DNA of 64,000 nucleotides. Origin: Phenylobacterium haematophilum (GTDB lineage: Bacteria; Pseudomonadota; Alphaproteobacteria; Caulobacterales; Caulobacteraceae). The DNA is taken from the NCBI RefSeq assembly GCF_014196295.1, contig NZ_JACIDK010000007.1:62001-126000 (forward strand). Reading direction: 5' to 3'. Position numbers and translations under genes: made by a program. The notes beneath the pieces are model-generated. The model made no database searches. It saw only the letters and a list, made by a program, of their open reading frames with translations, and had not been told where the DNA came from. Below, one piece after another: positions 6,820-11,304 of the stretch; position 1 is the first letter of the stretch; every line of letters begins with the position of its first letter.

Positions 6820-7466
6820 TCGAAGTTTCCGCCTTCAAGTGGGTTCCGCCCTTCGCCCGCGGCCTGGTCCGCGACCTGCGCGTCCGCTGGGCGCTGGAGG
6901 AGGCCGGCGTGCCTTATCGCGTTCGATTGATCGACTTTGACGACCGGGAGACCGCCGCCTATCGCGCGCTGCAACCGTTCGGCCAGGTCCCCGCCTATCA
7001 CGACGGCGAGTTGTCGATGTTCGAGAGCGGGGCGATCGTGTTGCACATCGCCGCCGGCGCGCCGGCTCTGATGCCCACCGATGCAGGCGGCCAAGCCCGG
7101 GCGACCACGTGGCTGTTCGCCGCCCTCAACTCGATCGAGCCGCCGATCCAGAACCTGGCCGAGCTCGACCTTTTCAACGCCGATCAGGAGTGGGCGCGCC
7201 TGCGGCGGCCAGGTCTCGTCGCCTTCGTCGAGCAGCGGCTGGGCGAACTGGCATCTAACCTCGGCGATAAGGACTATCTGGAGGCGGACGGCTTCACCGC
7301 CGGCGACCTGATGATGGTCACGGTGCTGCGCAACCTGCGCCACACGGACCTGATGGCGAAGTTTCCCAACCTGGCCGCCTACCAGGCCCGGTGCGAGGCG
7401 CGGCCGGCCTTCCAGGCGGCGCTGGCCGCCCAGCTGGGCGACTTCGTCGAGCTCGAACCGGCCTGA
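6816..7466 (+). CDS. glutathione S-transferase family protein
   Basis: 216 aa. The N-terminal thioredoxin-like domain shows EEAGVPYRVRLIDFDDRE and the cis-proline/glutathione-binding segment FGQVPAYHDGELSMFESGAIVLHIA. An all-helical GST C-domain follows. It overlaps the SRPBCC stop by 4 bp (ATGA), so it is translationally coupled and forms the third cistron of the ArsR operon. A detoxification or stress role is plausible from context; the electrophilic substrate is unknown. Confidence 0.88.
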   Translation: MIEVSAFKWVPPFARGLVRDLRVRWALEEAGVPYRVRLIDFDDRETAAYRALQPFGQVPAYHDGELSMFESGAIVLHIAAGAPALMPTDAGGQARATTWLFAALNSIEPPIQNLAELDLFNADQEWARLRRPGLVAFVEQRLGELASNLGDKDYLEADGFTAGDLMMVTVLRNLRHTDLMAKFPNLAAYQARCEARPAFQAALAAQLGDFVELEPA

Positions 7467-7516
7467 GTCGTCCGGACTCGCCATCTTCACACTTTGCGTC
7501 TAAGACCCGCGTCGCA

Positions 7517-7594
7517 ATGATCCGGGTTTCGCACCATCACGGCCATCACCATCCGACCGCGCACGCGGGATCGGCCTGGGATCGCATGGCCTAA
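7517..7594 (+). CDS. histidine-rich leader peptide of the hisS-hisZ-hisG operon
   Basis: A 25-codon ORF reads MIRVSHHHGHHHPTAHAGSA followed by WDRMA. Seven of its 25 codons are histidine, six of them within seven consecutive codons. It lies 163 bp upstream of three histidine-related genes. The start is the only ATG before the histidine run. The composition and position match the amino-acid-sensing leader peptides of attenuated biosynthetic operons. It is short and would normally be missed in annotation. Confidence 0.85.
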   Translation: MIRVSHHHGHHHPTAHAGSAWDRMA

Positions 7595-7693
7595 AGCGAC
7601 CCCCGCCCGAGCCTCCCGCACCAGCGGATGGGGCTTAAGGGCATCCCGGCTCCATCCGTCGAACATCTCCTTCCCAAGGACCCGACGAATGGA
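7549..7693 (+). promoter_or_regulatory. predicted translational attenuator of the his operon
   Basis: Four mutually exclusive segments can be read. Segment 1 is CCATCCG inside the His codons (7549-7555). Segment 2 is CGGATGGGGC (7625-7634). Segment 3 is GCTCCATCCGTCG (7649-7661). Segment 4 is CGACGAATGGA (7683-7693). Segment 2 pairs with 1 (7 bp) or with 3 (10 bp plus an inner GGG/CCC). Segment 3 pairs with 4 over 11 positions with one mismatch, reinforced by an inner TCCTT/AAGGA stem (7668-7680). The 3:4 hairpin sequesters the AAGGA and ATG of the next short ORF. No U-run follows, which favours translational over transcriptional control. This is a manual fold. Confidence 0.68.
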
Positions 7694-7748
7694 CATCTCC
7701 GCTTCCCAAACCCAGCCGCGCCTTGCCGCGCGCGCTGCGACCCGCTAG
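7689..7748 (+). CDS. short ORF coupling the attenuator to hisS
   Basis: A 19-codon ORF begins MDISASQTQP and stops at TAG 7746-7748, 9 bp before the hisS ATG and in the same reading frame as hisS. Its AAGGA ribosome site (7676-7680) and ATG are both inside the predicted 3:4 hairpin, while hisS itself has only a weak ribosome site. It may be a coupling cistron. It could instead be a vestigial N-terminal extension of hisS cut off by the in-frame stop. Confidence 0.5.
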   Translation: MDISASQTQPRLAARAATR

Positions 7749-7757
7749 GCGAGCGCC

Positions 7758-9227
7758 ATGACCGACGCTCCCCGCCCCGAGGCCCGCGCCCCGCGCGGTT
7801 TCAACGACCGCCGCGCCCGTGACCTGGCCGCCGAGCGCCAGATCCTGGCCAAGGTCTCCGCCGTCTATGAACGCTACGGCTTCGAGGCCTTCGACACCGG
7901 GGCCTTCGAGTACGCTGATGCCCTGGGCAAGTTCCTGCCTGACGCCGACCGTCCGAACGAGGGCGTCTTCGCCCTGCAGGATGACGACGAGCAGTGGATG
8001 GCTTTGCGCTACGACCTGACGGCGCCGCTGGCGCGGTTCGTGGCCGAAACGAAGGAAGGCCTGCCCAAGCCGTTCCGCCGCTATGCCTACGGTCCGGTCT
8101 GGCGGAACGAGAAGCCCGGCCCCGGCCGCTTCCGCGAATTCATTCAGTGCGACGCAGACACCGTCGGCTCGGCTCGGCCGGAAGCCGACGCCGAGATCAT
8201 CGCCATGGCGGTCGAGGGCCTGGAGGCCGCCGGCCTGCCCGCCGGCTCGGCGGTCATCAAGATCAACAACCGCAAGCTCCTCAACGGCCTGCTGACCACG
8301 GCCGGCGTCCAGAACGACGTCCAGAAGCTGGCCGTGCTGCGCGCCGTCGACAAGCTCGACCGCCTGGGTCCGGAAGGCGTGCGCCTGCTGTTGGGCGAAG
8401 GCCGCAAGGACGAGTCCGGCGACTTCACCAAGGGCGCGGGCCTTAACGCCGCCGGCGCCGAAGCGGTTCTGGCCTTCGTCGGCGCGGGGCTGAGCGGCCG
8501 GTCCGATACCCTCGACCAGATCGCGAACATCATCGGTGGCTCGGCCGAGGGCGACGCCGGCCTCGCCGAACTCGCCGCCATCGATAAGGCGCTGACCAGC
8601 CTAGGTGTCGGCGTCGAGCGCGCGGCCTTCGATCCGTCGATCGTCCGCGGGCTGGAGTACTACACCGGCGCGGTGTTCGAGGCCGAGCTGCTGCTCAAGA
8701 CCAAGGACGAGAAAGGCCGCGGCGTGCGCTTCGGCTCGATCGGCGGCGGCGGCCGCTACGACGACCTCGTCGCCCGCTTCACCGGCGAACAGGTGCCGGC
8801 CACAGGCTTCTCGTTCGGCGTCTCGCGTCTGGTCTCGGCGTTGCGCGCCGCCGGCCGTGACCTGGGCGACCAAGTCCGCGGCCCGGTGGTGGTGATCGCC
8901 TTCACACCCGACGACATGGCCCACTACTTCTCGGTGGTCGGCGAGCTGCGCAGCGCCGGCATCCCGGCCGAGGTCTATCTCGGCTCGGCCGGCATGAAGG
9001 CCCAGATGAAGTACGCCGACCGCCGCATGGCGCCGGCGGCGATCATGCTGGGCGGCGACGAGATCGCCGCCGGCAAGGTCACCATCAAGGATCTCGACCT
9101 CGGCCGCGCCCTGTCCTCGGGCGTCGCCGACAACGCCGAATGGCGCGAACAACGCCCGGGTCAGCAGACCATCGACCGTTCCGAACTGGTCGCGGCGGTG
9201 CGCAAGATCATCGAGGCCGGCCAGTGA
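7758..9227 (+). CDS. hisS: histidyl-tRNA synthetase
   Basis: 489 aa class II synthetase that charges tRNA-His. Motif 2 is GPVWRNEKPGPGRFREFIQCD (shown in part; about residues 113-132). The histidine-A region is VRGLEYYTGAVFEAEL (about 297), and motif 3 is FSFGVSRLVSAL (about 353). A C-terminal anticodon-binding domain follows (VVVIAFTPDD onward). The GLEYYTG form in place of GLDYY is typical of the divergent alphaproteobacterial HisRS, known to act on tRNA-His lacking G-1. It is the first large gene of the operon; its stop overlaps hisZ. Confidence 0.95.
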   Translation: MTDAPRPEARAPRGFNDRRARDLAAERQILAKVSAVYERYGFEAFDTGAFEYADALGKFLPDADRPNEGVFALQDDDEQWMALRYDLTAPLARFVAETKEGLPKPFRRYAYGPVWRNEKPGPGRFREFIQCDADTVGSARPEADAEIIAMAVEGLEAAGLPAGSAVIKINNRKLLNGLLTTAGVQNDVQKLAVLRAVDKLDRLGPEGVRLLLGEGRKDESGDFTKGAGLNAAGAEAVLAFVGAGLSGRSDTLDQIANIIGGSAEGDAGLAELAAIDKALTSLGVGVERAAFDPSIVRGLEYYTGAVFEAELLLKTKDEKGRGVRFGSIGGGGRYDDLVARFTGEQVPATGFSFGVSRLVSALRAAGRDLGDQVRGPVVVIAFTPDDMAHYFSVVGELRSAGIPAEVYLGSAGMKAQMKYADRRMAPAAIMLGGDEIAAGKVTIKDLDLGRALSSGVADNAEWREQRPGQQTIDRSELVAAVRKIIEAGQ

Positions 9228-10357
9228 GCGCCGAACCCGCCGTTCCCGCCGAACCGCTCGCCGCGATCCGCGCGCCGTTTCTGGACCAGGCCGCCGAGGT
9301 CGTCGACGCGCCGATCCTGCAGCCGCTCGGCCTGCTGCTGGAGCTGGCTGGCGAGGCTATGCGTCCGCGGCTGTTCGTCGTGCAGTCGGAAGGCGGGCAG
9401 GAGACCTGCCTGCGTCCCGACTTCACCGTTCCGGTGGTGCGCCAGCACCTCGAAAGCGGCCGCTCCTCGGGCCGCTATTTTTATGAAGGCAAGGCCTTCC
9501 GCGCCTCGCCCGAGCCCGGCCGCCCCGACGAGTTCCGACAGATCGGCCTGGAAAGCTTCGACGGGGCCGAGGCCTCGGTGGTTCAGGCGGACGCCGAGAT
9601 CGCCGCCCTGGCCTGGCGCTCGGCCCTGGCCGGCGGACGCAGCGACCTGTCGCTGTGGCTCGGCGACATCGCGCTCTTCGCCGCCTTCGTCGACACCCTG
9701 GGCCTCGCCGCCCCGCTGGCGGCGCGCGTGAAGCGCGTCGCCGCCCGCCCGCGGCTGCTGGCCGCCGAACTGGCCCGCGCCGACGGCGCGGCCGCCGCCC
9801 CGGCCGACGACGGCAAGCTGGCCGGTCTGCTGTCGGGCCTGTCGGAGGCCGAGGCCGCCACCGTGCTGGAAGAGGTCTGGGCCCTGGCCGGGATCGATCC
9901 GGTCGGCGGCCGCGGCCCGGCCGAGATCGCCCAGCGACTGATCCGCCGCGCGCAGGCCGCCCAGGCCCCGGCTCTGACGGGCGACCAGGCCGACCGCATC
10001 CGCCGCTTCCTGGCCATCGAGGACGCGCCCTCTGCGGCGTTCGATGCAGTGGCCGACATCGCCGGCAAGGGCGCCCTTGATGCGCAGTTGGCGGCCTGGG
10101 CCGAGCGGTTGGCGCTCCTCCATGCAGCGGGCGTGCCGACCGAGGCGATCCGCTTCTCCACCGCGCTCGGTCACGCCTTCGACTACTACGACGGCCTGAC
10201 CTTCGAGATCCGCTCGGCGTCGTTGGACCCCGAGCGCAGCGTCGCCGTCGGCGGACGCTATGACAGCCTGCCCTCGCGGCTGGGCGGAACGGCCGACGTG
10301 CGGGCCGTCGGATGCGTAGTCCGGCCCTGGCGGGCCTGGGCGGGAGGCGAGTCGTGA
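9224..10357 (+). CDS. hisZ: ATP phosphoribosyltransferase regulatory subunit
   Basis: 377 aa HisRS paralogue without aminoacylation function, the partner of HisG in the first step of histidine biosynthesis. It keeps the class II core: DAPILQPLGLLLEL, LRPDFTVPVVRQHL, RYFYEGKAFRASPEPGRPDE and the C-terminal GHAFDYYDGLTFEI and AVGGRYDSL. I chose the GTG at 9224 because it overlaps the hisS stop (GTGA); the earlier ATG would lie deep inside hisS. It lacks the anticodon-binding domain, as expected for HisZ. Confidence 0.92.
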   Translation: MSAEPAVPAEPLAAIRAPFLDQAAEVVDAPILQPLGLLLELAGEAMRPRLFVVQSEGGQETCLRPDFTVPVVRQHLESGRSSGRYFYEGKAFRASPEPGRPDEFRQIGLESFDGAEASVVQADAEIAALAWRSALAGGRSDLSLWLGDIALFAAFVDTLGLAAPLAARVKRVAARPRLLAAELARADGAAAAPADDGKLAGLLSGLSEAEAATVLEEVWALAGIDPVGGRGPAEIAQRLIRRAQAAQAPALTGDQADRIRRFLAIEDAPSAAFDAVADIAGKGALDAQLAAWAERLALLHAAGVPTEAIRFSTALGHAFDYYDGLTFEIRSASLDPERSVAVGGRYDSLPSRLGGTADVRAVGCVVRPWRAWAGGES

Positions 10358-11304
10358 GCGAACCCCTTATCCTCGCCGTCCCCTCGAAGGGGCGCCTGAA
10401 GGAACAGGTCGAGGCCTGGCTCGGCGACTGCGGACTGAAACTGTCCGTGGCCGGCGGATCGCGCGGCTACATGGCCGAACTCAAGGGCGTGCCCGGCATC
10501 CAGGTCCGGCTGCTGTCGGCCGGCGACATCGCCGAAGCCCTGGACCTCGGGGAGGTGCATCTGGGCGTCACCGGCGAGGACCTGTTGCGCGAGCGCGGCG
10601 GCGACGTCGACGCCCGCGTGCTGCTGCTGCGCGCGCTCGGCTTCGGCCGCGCCGACCTGGTCGTCGCCGTGCCCAAGAGCTGGATCGACGTCGAGACCAT
10701 GGCCGACCTGGAGGAGGTGGGCCATGACCTGCTCGCCCGCTCCGGGCGGCGCATGCGGGTGGCTACGAAGTATCTGGTCCAGACCCGCGCCTTCTTCGCG
10801 CGGCACGGCGTCGCCGACTACCGGATCACCGAATCCGGCGGCGCGACCGAGGGGGCCCCGGCCGCCGGCTCGGCCGAGCTGGTGGTCGACATCACCACCA
10901 CCGGCGCGACCCTGGTCGCCAACGGCCTCAAGGTGCTGGGCGACGGGGTGATCCTGAAGAGCCAGGCCCAGCTGACCGCATCGCTGCGTGCATCCTGGAG
11001 CCAAGATCAACTTGCGGCGGCCGAGCGGCTGTTGCGTGTGATCGAGGCCCGTGCCGCCGCCCACGACAGCGCCACCCTGATCTGGCCGTCCGACCCGCGT
11101 GAGACCCCGGTGGTCGAAGCCCTCGTAAAAAGCGGCGCCAGCCGCCGCCCGAACGGCTTGCTGGTTCCGGCCGGCAAGGTGGCGGAGGCTTCGTTGGCGC
11201 TGGCGGGCGCCGGAATCGGCCCCGTCACCGCTTCGCGTCCGGACTTTGTCTATGACGTGGGTTGTGTGTCGAGTGAGGAACTACGCAGACGAGTGCATTT
11301 TTGA
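10354..11304 (+). CDS. hisG: ATP phosphoribosyltransferase, catalytic subunit with C-terminal extension
   Basis: Catalyses the ATP-PRPP condensation, the first and feedback-regulated step of histidine synthesis. The start is the GTG overlapping the hisZ stop, giving VSEPLILAVPSKGRLKEQ. The catalytic core matches short-form HisG: GVTGEDLLRE, the PRPP-binding segment AELVVDITTTGATLVANGLK and GVILKSQAQL. The core ends near residue 233, and about 80 further residues follow (HDSATLIWPSDPRE to the end). Short HisG proteins that need HisZ are usually about 200-230 aa, so this tail is notable. The stop codon lies inside a 24-bp palindrome. Confidence 0.93.
   Translation: MSEPLILAVPSKGRLKEQVEAWLGDCGLKLSVAGGSRGYMAELKGVPGIQVRLLSAGDIAEALDLGEVHLGVTGEDLLRERGGDVDARVLLLRALGFGRADLVVAVPKSWIDVETMADLEEVGHDLLARSGRRMRVATKYLVQTRAFFARHGVADYRITESGGATEGAPAAGSAELVVDITTTGATLVANGLKVLGDGVILKSQAQLTASLRASWSQDQLAAAERLLRVIEARAAAHDSATLIWPSDPRETPVVEALVKSGASRRPNGLLVPAGKVAEASLALAGAGIGPVTASRPDFVYDVGCVSSEELRRRVHF

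Follow-up and report, generated by a model that had tools for sequence, protein, structure and literature searches.

A probable translational attenuator built from five chained RNA segments ahead of hisS in Phenylobacterium haematophilum and its relatives

A short His-rich reading frame and a chain of pairing RNA segments precede the histidyl-tRNA synthetase gene hisS in Phenylobacterium haematophilum. We consider that together they probably form a ribosome-mediated translational attenuator for histidine, which would sense charged His-tRNA and pass the signal to a start codon through a relay of five segments (A–E). Among relatives the reading frame and its geometry are conserved and the pairings B:C, C:D and D:E co-vary, and in folding calculations the helices switch with the position of the ribosome. 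All coordinates refer to the window, that is, the whole 64,000-nt stretch of DNA that was analyzed.

Results

Organization of the hisS leader

The leader ORF has 25 codons, seven of them for His, as the original prediction made from the DNA sequence had stated. The start of hisS lies 163 nt further on, and hisZ and hisG follow. All three genes are supported by NCBIfam matches (hisS, TIGR00442, 382.7 bits; hisZ, NF008949, 520.2 bits; hisG, TIGR00070, 163.2 bits). The features of the locus are as follows:

7475–7479, plus strand: GACTC upstream of P1, a possible GcrA/CcrM-type element (putative function)
7499–7506, plus strand: P1, −10-like box TCTAAGAC (GCTATAGC in many relatives), from the sequences and column majorities, with a putative transcription start
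7517–7594, plus strand: leader peptide ORF, MIRVSHHHGHHHPTAHAGSAWDRMA, stop codon TAA at 7592–7594
7565–7574, plus strand: segment A, GCGGGATCGG, inside the ORF, partner B
7608–7619, plus strand: segment B, CGAGCCTCCCGC, partner A or C, beginning 13 nt past the stop
7624–7635, plus strand: segment C, GCGGATGGGGCT, partner B or D
7649–7661, plus strand: segment D, GCTCCATCCGTCG, partner C or E
7676–7693, plus strand: segment E, with the SD-like AAGGA (7676–7680) and the start region CGACGAATGGA (7683–7693)
7689–7748, plus strand: 19-codon ORF from the E start, MDISASQTQPRLAARAATR, in frame with hisS and ending 9 nt upstream of the hisS ATG
7723–7751, plus strand: P2, promoter-like, TTGCCG (7723–7728) and TAGGCG (7746–7751), putative activity
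7758–9227, plus strand: hisS, histidyl-tRNA synthetase
9140–10357, plus strand: hisZ ORF, family match from codon 31 (about 9230)
10312–11304, plus strand: hisG ORF, family match from codon 20
7467–7629, minus strand: match to Rfam RF01528 ("CC3513"), antisense to P1, the leader ORF, A, B and the start of C

The five segments are chained by the pairings A:B, B:C, C:D and D:E, and A lies within the leader ORF, 12 nt past the end of codon 12 in the window. Four segments had been predicted. The pairing of D with the start region of E (then segments 3 and 4) and an inner stem of TCCTT (7668–7672) with AAGGA (7676–7680) were both confirmed. A ribosome site and an ATG are indeed hidden by the fourth of the predicted segments, but this ATG (7689) is not the start of hisS (7758).

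The P1 box ends 10 nt upstream of the leader ATG, and a leader transcript from P1 would be near-leaderless; a scan with the sigma-70 consensus gave no match at the box. Of the 62 distinct leaders described below, 32 have GANTC, the CcrM methylation site, within the 60 nt preceding the leader ATG, and in 27 of these 32 it stands at −41, −42 or −37. Kept in position before P1, it is a possible cell-cycle (CcrM/GcrA) input.

Conservation and range

In all 30 loci fetched via RF01528, a His-run peptide precedes hisS on the hisS strand. We also considered 80 named hisS loci, the best 80 of 577 relatives in a HisS scan, with titles including Phenylobacterium, Caulobacter, Brevundimonas, Asticcacaulis and others. 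Here the peptide is present in 38 loci and missing from 42, of which three (L077, L086, L095) have too little upstream sequence to judge. All Brevundimonas- and Asticcacaulis-titled loci fall among the 42, the Brevundimonas locus L095 being one of those that cannot be judged. Merging identical leaders left 62 distinct ones from Phenylobacterium, Caulobacter and near genera, the window's included. These 62 keep the His run, the geometry and the pairings.

Both hisZ and hisG lie downstream in 36 of the 38 leader-bearing named loci, and hisZ in one more. The switch would thus usually stand over the synthetase together with the first biosynthetic enzyme, which makes hisS a less odd first target than originally thought. 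The 42 leaderless loci show neither gene in 34 cases, both in 7 and hisZ only in 1. Since seven of them keep all three genes, not every hisS-hisZ-hisG operon has the leader; leaderless operons of this kind had been named beforehand as evidence that would count against an attenuator, and they do so in part.

A covariance model (R1) was built from 40 leaders, with C:D as its sole helix. At E ≤ 0.01 it matches 110 of 199 Caulobacteraceae genomes, and it scores above 60 bits in 85 of the 199, including 38 of the 39 same-genus genomes in a listing that leaves out 69 unmatched genomes. Of 13 places above 60 bits that we fetched from several genera, in part loci met before under other ids, one was too short to show hisS; the remaining 12 all have hisS, and 11 of them also have the peptide. 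In order-wide searches 27 of 200 genomes matched at E ≤ 0.001, only two of them outside the family (29 and 35 bits), and in the class 9 of 385 genomes matched.

The twelfth place (L226) is peculiar: unrelated A+T-rich sequence replaces P1 and the His codons there, and B–E and hisS remain.

Codons 6–14 of the ORF have identities of 1.00, 0.97 and 0.87 at codon positions 1, 2 and 3 (18 leaders), and the His-Pro-Thr core of the peptide is well kept. As a separate observation, CAT is used in 53 of the 62 leaders for the His codon directly preceding Pro-Thr or for its counterpart (7550–7552 in the window), whereas only 99 of the 309 other early His codons are CAT.

Evidence for the pairings

The motif GCGGG(A/T)(A/T/C)CGG is found in segment A of 44 of the 62 leaders and is read in two different frames (24 and 20 leaders), the peptide being AGS in some and RGIG in others. 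Its preservation across two reading frames points to the RNA, not the peptide, as what is conserved. Segment B, around GAGCCCCGC, begins 10–22 nt past the leader stop in the 62 leaders. In the alignments C reads GCGGA(T/C)GGGGCT and D reads GCTCC(A/G)TCCGTCG, and the first start codon lies in E together with an SD-like stretch. Alignment A2 comprises 40 of the 62 leaders, picked for variety. L087, which has an 80-nt insertion, was left out of both alignments (A1 and A2), and L025, with 103 aa of HisS, out of the tree.

When partners were exchanged between species, own partners paired better for B:C (z −7.9), C:D (z −7.8) and D:E (z −7.1), with 0 of 5000 permutations reaching the observed value in each case. 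For A:B this test was used in place of alignment columns, since the A motif shifts by one base between lineages. It gave z −1.9, or −2.2 with flanks only (68 of 5000), which is hardly better than A:D, a pair outside the model (z −1.8). Of the 9 leaders with TTCGG in A, 8 have CGAAG in B; of the 30 with ATCGG, 1 does. Co-variation among relatives, the check named in the original prediction, is seen for B:C, C:D and D:E, and only weakly for A:B.

In C:D, 95.5% of alignment cells are paired and 18 cells are changed on both sides (U-A to C-G); 0 of 500 shuffles were as high on either measure. These double changes sit in one pair, which is U-A in 20 of the 40 sequences and C-G in 18, with one mismatch and one gap, and the other eight pairs show none. 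Both-side changes thus affect only one of nine C:D pairs and one of eight B:C pairs. On a quick HisS tree the variable C:D pair needs only about three changes, with just one change forced by well-supported branches, so the number of independent events is small. For B:C, 92.1% of cells are paired, compared with 90.0% in shuffles. The longest D:E helix takes 26 different sequence forms, yet in all 62 leaders its 3′ arm falls between −18 and +5 relative to the first start codon. The stretches 7562–7700 and 7595–7700 fold modestly better than shuffles (z −1.6 and −2.0).

We also tried pairing of the His run (CCATCCG) with C, as a functional "segment 1". It was rejected: own partners were no better (z +2.0), and at most 1.7 pairs are expected on average.

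Folding as a function of ribosome position

Each of the 62 leaders was folded after removal of everything up to a chosen front edge of the ribosome. For an edge at nt 45, the mean numbers of expected pairs were 7.4 for A:B, 6.4 for C:D, 3.9 for B:C and 6.0 for D:E. At nt 78 the pattern was different, with 0 for A:B, 10.3 for B:C, 0.3 for C:D and 10.1 for D:E. The median accessibility of the start region was 0.46–0.47 at edges 42–48, compared with 0.37–0.40 at edges 0–36 and 0.36–0.40 at edges 51–93. At edges from nt 54 to 90, B:C and D:E form and the start is shut. A second opening, at edges 99–108, would need a ribosome over B.

In toeprinting, the front edge of a ribosome usually lies 15–16 nt past the P-site codon, counted from the first base of that codon. 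Given this reach, edges 42–48 correspond to about codons 10–12 in the A site, i.e., to the second His cluster. In 36 of the 62 leaders the start was more open (by more than 0.02) with the edge on the His codons than either without a ribosome or with the edge past them; the same criterion picked on average 10.0 of 62 in shuffles (range 2–14 in 12 sets). In 12 of the 62, the start with the edge on the His codons was less open than in one other state. On average D:E retains 6 of its roughly 10 pairs even at these edges, and the predicted opening of the start is partial.

The direction of this switch reverses the account given in the original prediction, in which the stalled ribosome masks the first segment. 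B, the first pairing segment after the ORF, begins 55 nt past the end of the second His cluster (at nt 92), so a ribosome at that cluster cannot reach it. The other elements of that account, a His-codon sensor, mutually exclusive helices and a hidden ribosome site, are supported.

As in known leader-peptide attenuators, the locus has a short ORF rich in codons for the regulated amino acid and exclusive helices that, as computed, depend on ribosome position. As in RBS-sequestering elements, a helix covers the SD and start codon and an alternative frees both, judging from sequence and folding.

Start codons and a putative second promoter

The start codon in E runs in frame into hisS without a stop in 35 of the 62 leaders. 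The other 27 have a short ORF from E, in frame and stopped in 15 and in another frame in 12; all 27 end within −12 to +5 of the hisS start. The window's leader belongs to the stopped kind (ATG 7689, stop 7746–7748). A stop near hisS is consistent with translational coupling. This proximity is confounded, since the TAG in the window belongs to the promoter-like box and the ATGA of the hisS start itself ends one other frame. The stops may in part reflect the TAG/TAA of the P2 box and this ATGA, not coupling.

A P2-like box of the TA(A/G)NC kind stands at −12 or −13 of the hisS ATG, with TTG upstream, in 39 of the 41 leaders in which over 36 nt separate the E start from hisS, and in none of the other 21 (shuffled frequency 0.03). 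These 21 include all 13 titled Caulobacter and a few Phenylobacterium. A box resembling P2 is also seen in 29 of 40 loci lacking the leader, 26 of them with TTG. From these counts most Phenylobacterium leaders seen, the window's included, appear to carry an attenuated P1 and a leaderless P2; the latter would yield leaderless hisS mRNA outside the switch.

Alternative explanations

The leader might act mainly on transcription, with B:C or the untranslated stretch behind it halting the polymerase at an intrinsic or Rho-dependent terminator and D:E as an addition. In all six leaders of similar architecture that were checked before ilvC-like and GNAT-like genes, T5–T6 follows B:C, a clear T-run (TTTTTCTTT) stands after C in the hisS leader L041, and the available text of PMC4117421 reports Caulobacter ilvBN as a transcription attenuator. 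However, no terminator-like site was found on either strand of 7400–7800, and the GC hairpin with U-run of a classical transcription attenuator is missing from the window, which supports translational rather than intrinsic-terminator control there, as originally predicted. Moreover, 56 of the 62 hisS leaders have at most four T in the 9 nt after C, and D:E is held on the start codon in all 62, which a terminator would not need. We therefore consider transcriptional control unlikely as the main level of action.

The conserved object could instead be an antisense small RNA, the CC3513 RNA of Rfam, with the His codons as a by-product. RF01528 matches the minus strand from 7629 to 7467 with 40.6 bits (gathering score 40, E 1.8e-5). 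Among 60 genomes, our own included, 33 have a match at E ≤ 1 and 8 a match above the cut-off. Strand counts from G-U/A-C changes are mixed: C:D favors sense (13 vs 1) and B:C favors antisense (2 vs 7). The RF01528 consensus, however, when reversed carries a His-run ORF that on our reading of the alignment fits the leader, so the family appears to cover the leader element from the opposite side. In addition, the ORF, its codon-position pattern, the place before hisS (which adjoins the RF01528 match in 30 of 30 fetched loci) and D:E on the start fit the plus strand only. An antisense RNA is in our opinion very improbable, and RF01528 is probably a mis-stranded cis-regulator.

Equally slim is the chance that the His-rich peptide itself is functional, e.g., in metal binding, and the RNA pairings secondary: HHHGHHH could bind nickel, zinc or cobalt and the His-Pro-Thr core is preserved, but the tail switches reading frame between lineages where the RNA motif stays, and the target is hisS, mostly with hisZ-hisG.

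Similar leaders before other genes

Weaker R1 matches revealed other leader peptides, accompanied by segments that resemble A, B and C, ahead of ilvC-, GNAT-, asd-, aspartokinase- and methyltransferase-like genes; L131, one of 20 such stretches, showed no leader peptide. Names in "-like" (asd, ilvC, GNAT, aspartokinase and methyltransferase, and thrS in L146 and L149) were read from protein starts rather than from family searches.

Among class-wide matches, Thr-run peptides (e.g., MHRVAHLCTTTTTTTRFGGPDGVVMR) precede thrS or thrS-like genes in four other alphaproteobacterial genomes (L146, L147, L149, L150), with thrS backed by TIGR00418 matches at L147 and L150 (genomes G430 and G416). All four have A–E-like segments, and L146 and L150 show the D-like CCTCCGTCCG and an E-like CGGAG before ATG. 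In a survey of 40 thrS matches, hand-picked with larger genomes preferred from a table with a match in 114 of 115 genomes, two of the 40 had a Thr-run short ORF followed by a hairpin, namely L189 and L178 (identical in place to L147); such thrS leaders are thus sporadic.

In our own genome, MRRSTIKSAIKTTMPAGLGGSRVLAA (L145) precedes one of two asd genes (asd by TIGR01296), and a class-wide match gave a Thr/Lys peptide before an asd-like gene (L148). In all, peptides rich in Thr, Lys, Ile or Met with a GC hairpin behind them were seen before asd or asd-like genes at L145, L148, L119, L120, L122–L124, L126–L128 and L130. A ribosome-edge scan on nine asd leaders gave no clean switch, so we do not claim these as translational attenuators.

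The own genome also has MASGRNTWRWRSA (L172) before trpS (trpS by TIGR00233). Of the 24 genomes fetched, 10 have a short WRWR peptide just before trpS, and every one of these belongs to the same genus (L172, L153, L159, L163, L164, L165, L167, L168, L171 and L173). They fit the trpS leader CDS reported in Caulobacter.

Two further groups were noted. Peptides ending in VRDVVR, VGDVVR or RGVVR precede ilvC-like or GNAT-like genes, with a hairpin and a T-run behind them (L113, L116–L118, L121, L132), and Met/Ile-rich peptides (MLRCATMIMISTIAPSRGVGGHARD in L114) precede a methyltransferase-like gene (L114, L115).

A pattern for the architecture did not discriminate when run against the own genome: it gave 11 matches, compared with 27 for the same pattern reversed as a control, and it missed the hisS site.

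Discussion

Proposed mechanism

We infer from these patterns how stalling, the direction of the response, coupling and the two promoters would fit together in a translational attenuator. The first codons of the near-leaderless P1 mRNA would be those of the leader peptide. With ample charged His-tRNA, the ribosome would pass the His codons and cover A until termination; B would then pair with C and D with E, which would shut the SD and the start codon of E. With His-tRNA scarce, the ribosome would halt on the second His cluster (codons 10–12) and leave A free just past its front edge. A would capture B, C would capture D, E would open and translation would begin there. In the window E would start the 19-codon ORF, whose end lies 9 nt upstream of hisS, so that hisS itself would be translated through coupling; E would start hisS directly in 35 of the 62 leaders. 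P2 would provide a basal supply of hisS outside histidine control.

Relation to known systems

In translational attenuators of the ermC type, a stalled ribosome frees a hidden RBS by changing the pairings, as we propose for the hisS leader. The ermC leader senses a drug via the nascent chain; the proposed signal here is codon-specific starvation. A 2010 work by Lopatovskaya reportedly deals with attenuation of amino acid and aminoacyl-tRNA operons and may overlap with our results.

The his operon leader of E. coli and Salmonella, as described in the available text of PMC9413887, shares with the hisS leader a His-codon peptide and alternative helices chosen by ribosome position. It differs in that it has an intrinsic terminator and controls the his biosynthetic operon, whereas the hisS leader has a start-codon helix in place of a terminator and hisS as its first gene. 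In addition, stalling covers the first segment in E. coli and Salmonella and must leave it free in the hisS leader. Neither the RF00514 His_leader model nor a T-box model matched at E ≤ 1 in 7000–8200, where RF01528 was the only Rfam match.

Attenuators with an RBS-sequestering helix in place of the terminator are stated to exist (PMC9413887, in the sections available) and act at the same outcome level as the hisS leader. In the accessible literature we found no published case of this kind that precedes hisS, comes from Caulobacterales or has a five-segment relay with its first segment within the ORF. In Bacillus, according to the available part of PMC2965389, a His leader peptide precedes hisZ and a hisS paralogue, so that a His-codon leader before hisS-family genes is common to both groups; it was found via premature terminators in Firmicutes, though, and the same text reports no sequence similarity to Proteobacteria. 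For Caulobacter crescentus, from the same bacterial family, the main text of PMC4117421 describes a trpS leader CDS and an ilvBN leader, i.e., leader peptides before an aminoacyl-tRNA synthetase gene and a biosynthetic operon. Unlike the hisS leader, that of ilvBN is described with a rho-independent terminator, and hisS is absent from this main text.

The original prediction knew of no published description. Within the available portions of PMC4117421, PMC4287350, PMC2965389, PMC4833913, PMC9413887 and PMC3766115, we likewise found none of a His leader before hisS in Caulobacterales, but Rfam already carries the same DNA as RF01528, filed on the opposite strand as a Caulobacter sRNA.

A possible shared plan and its implications

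We propose that the hisS leader is the start-codon version of a shared attenuator plan. More tentatively, and with somewhat less than even confidence, we suggest a modular alphaproteobacterial class of attenuators for amino acids and aminoacyl-tRNA synthetases. Its members would share the relay (A in the ORF tail, B as GCCCCGC, C as GGAYGGGGC, D as YCCRTCC, and the SD and start in E), in which a stalled ribosome leaves the first segment free. Retargeting would come about by a swap of sensor codons (His for hisS, Thr for thrS) and of output (start cover or terminator), and Rfam would list the reverse strand of one member as an unrelated sRNA. The nine asd leaders without a switch and the low count of thrS leaders (2 of 40) speak against such a plan.

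If the translational attenuator proposed here is real, Caulobacter and its relatives would have a direct sensor of tRNA charging on the synthetase and usually also on the first step of histidine synthesis. These are model bacteria for which the literature available to us yielded no description of hisS control. The leader also suggests that a curated sRNA family of Rfam, RF01528, represents the wrong strand of a cis-regulator, and it suggests how a terminator-type attenuator may become a start-codon switch, namely by the addition of two segments.
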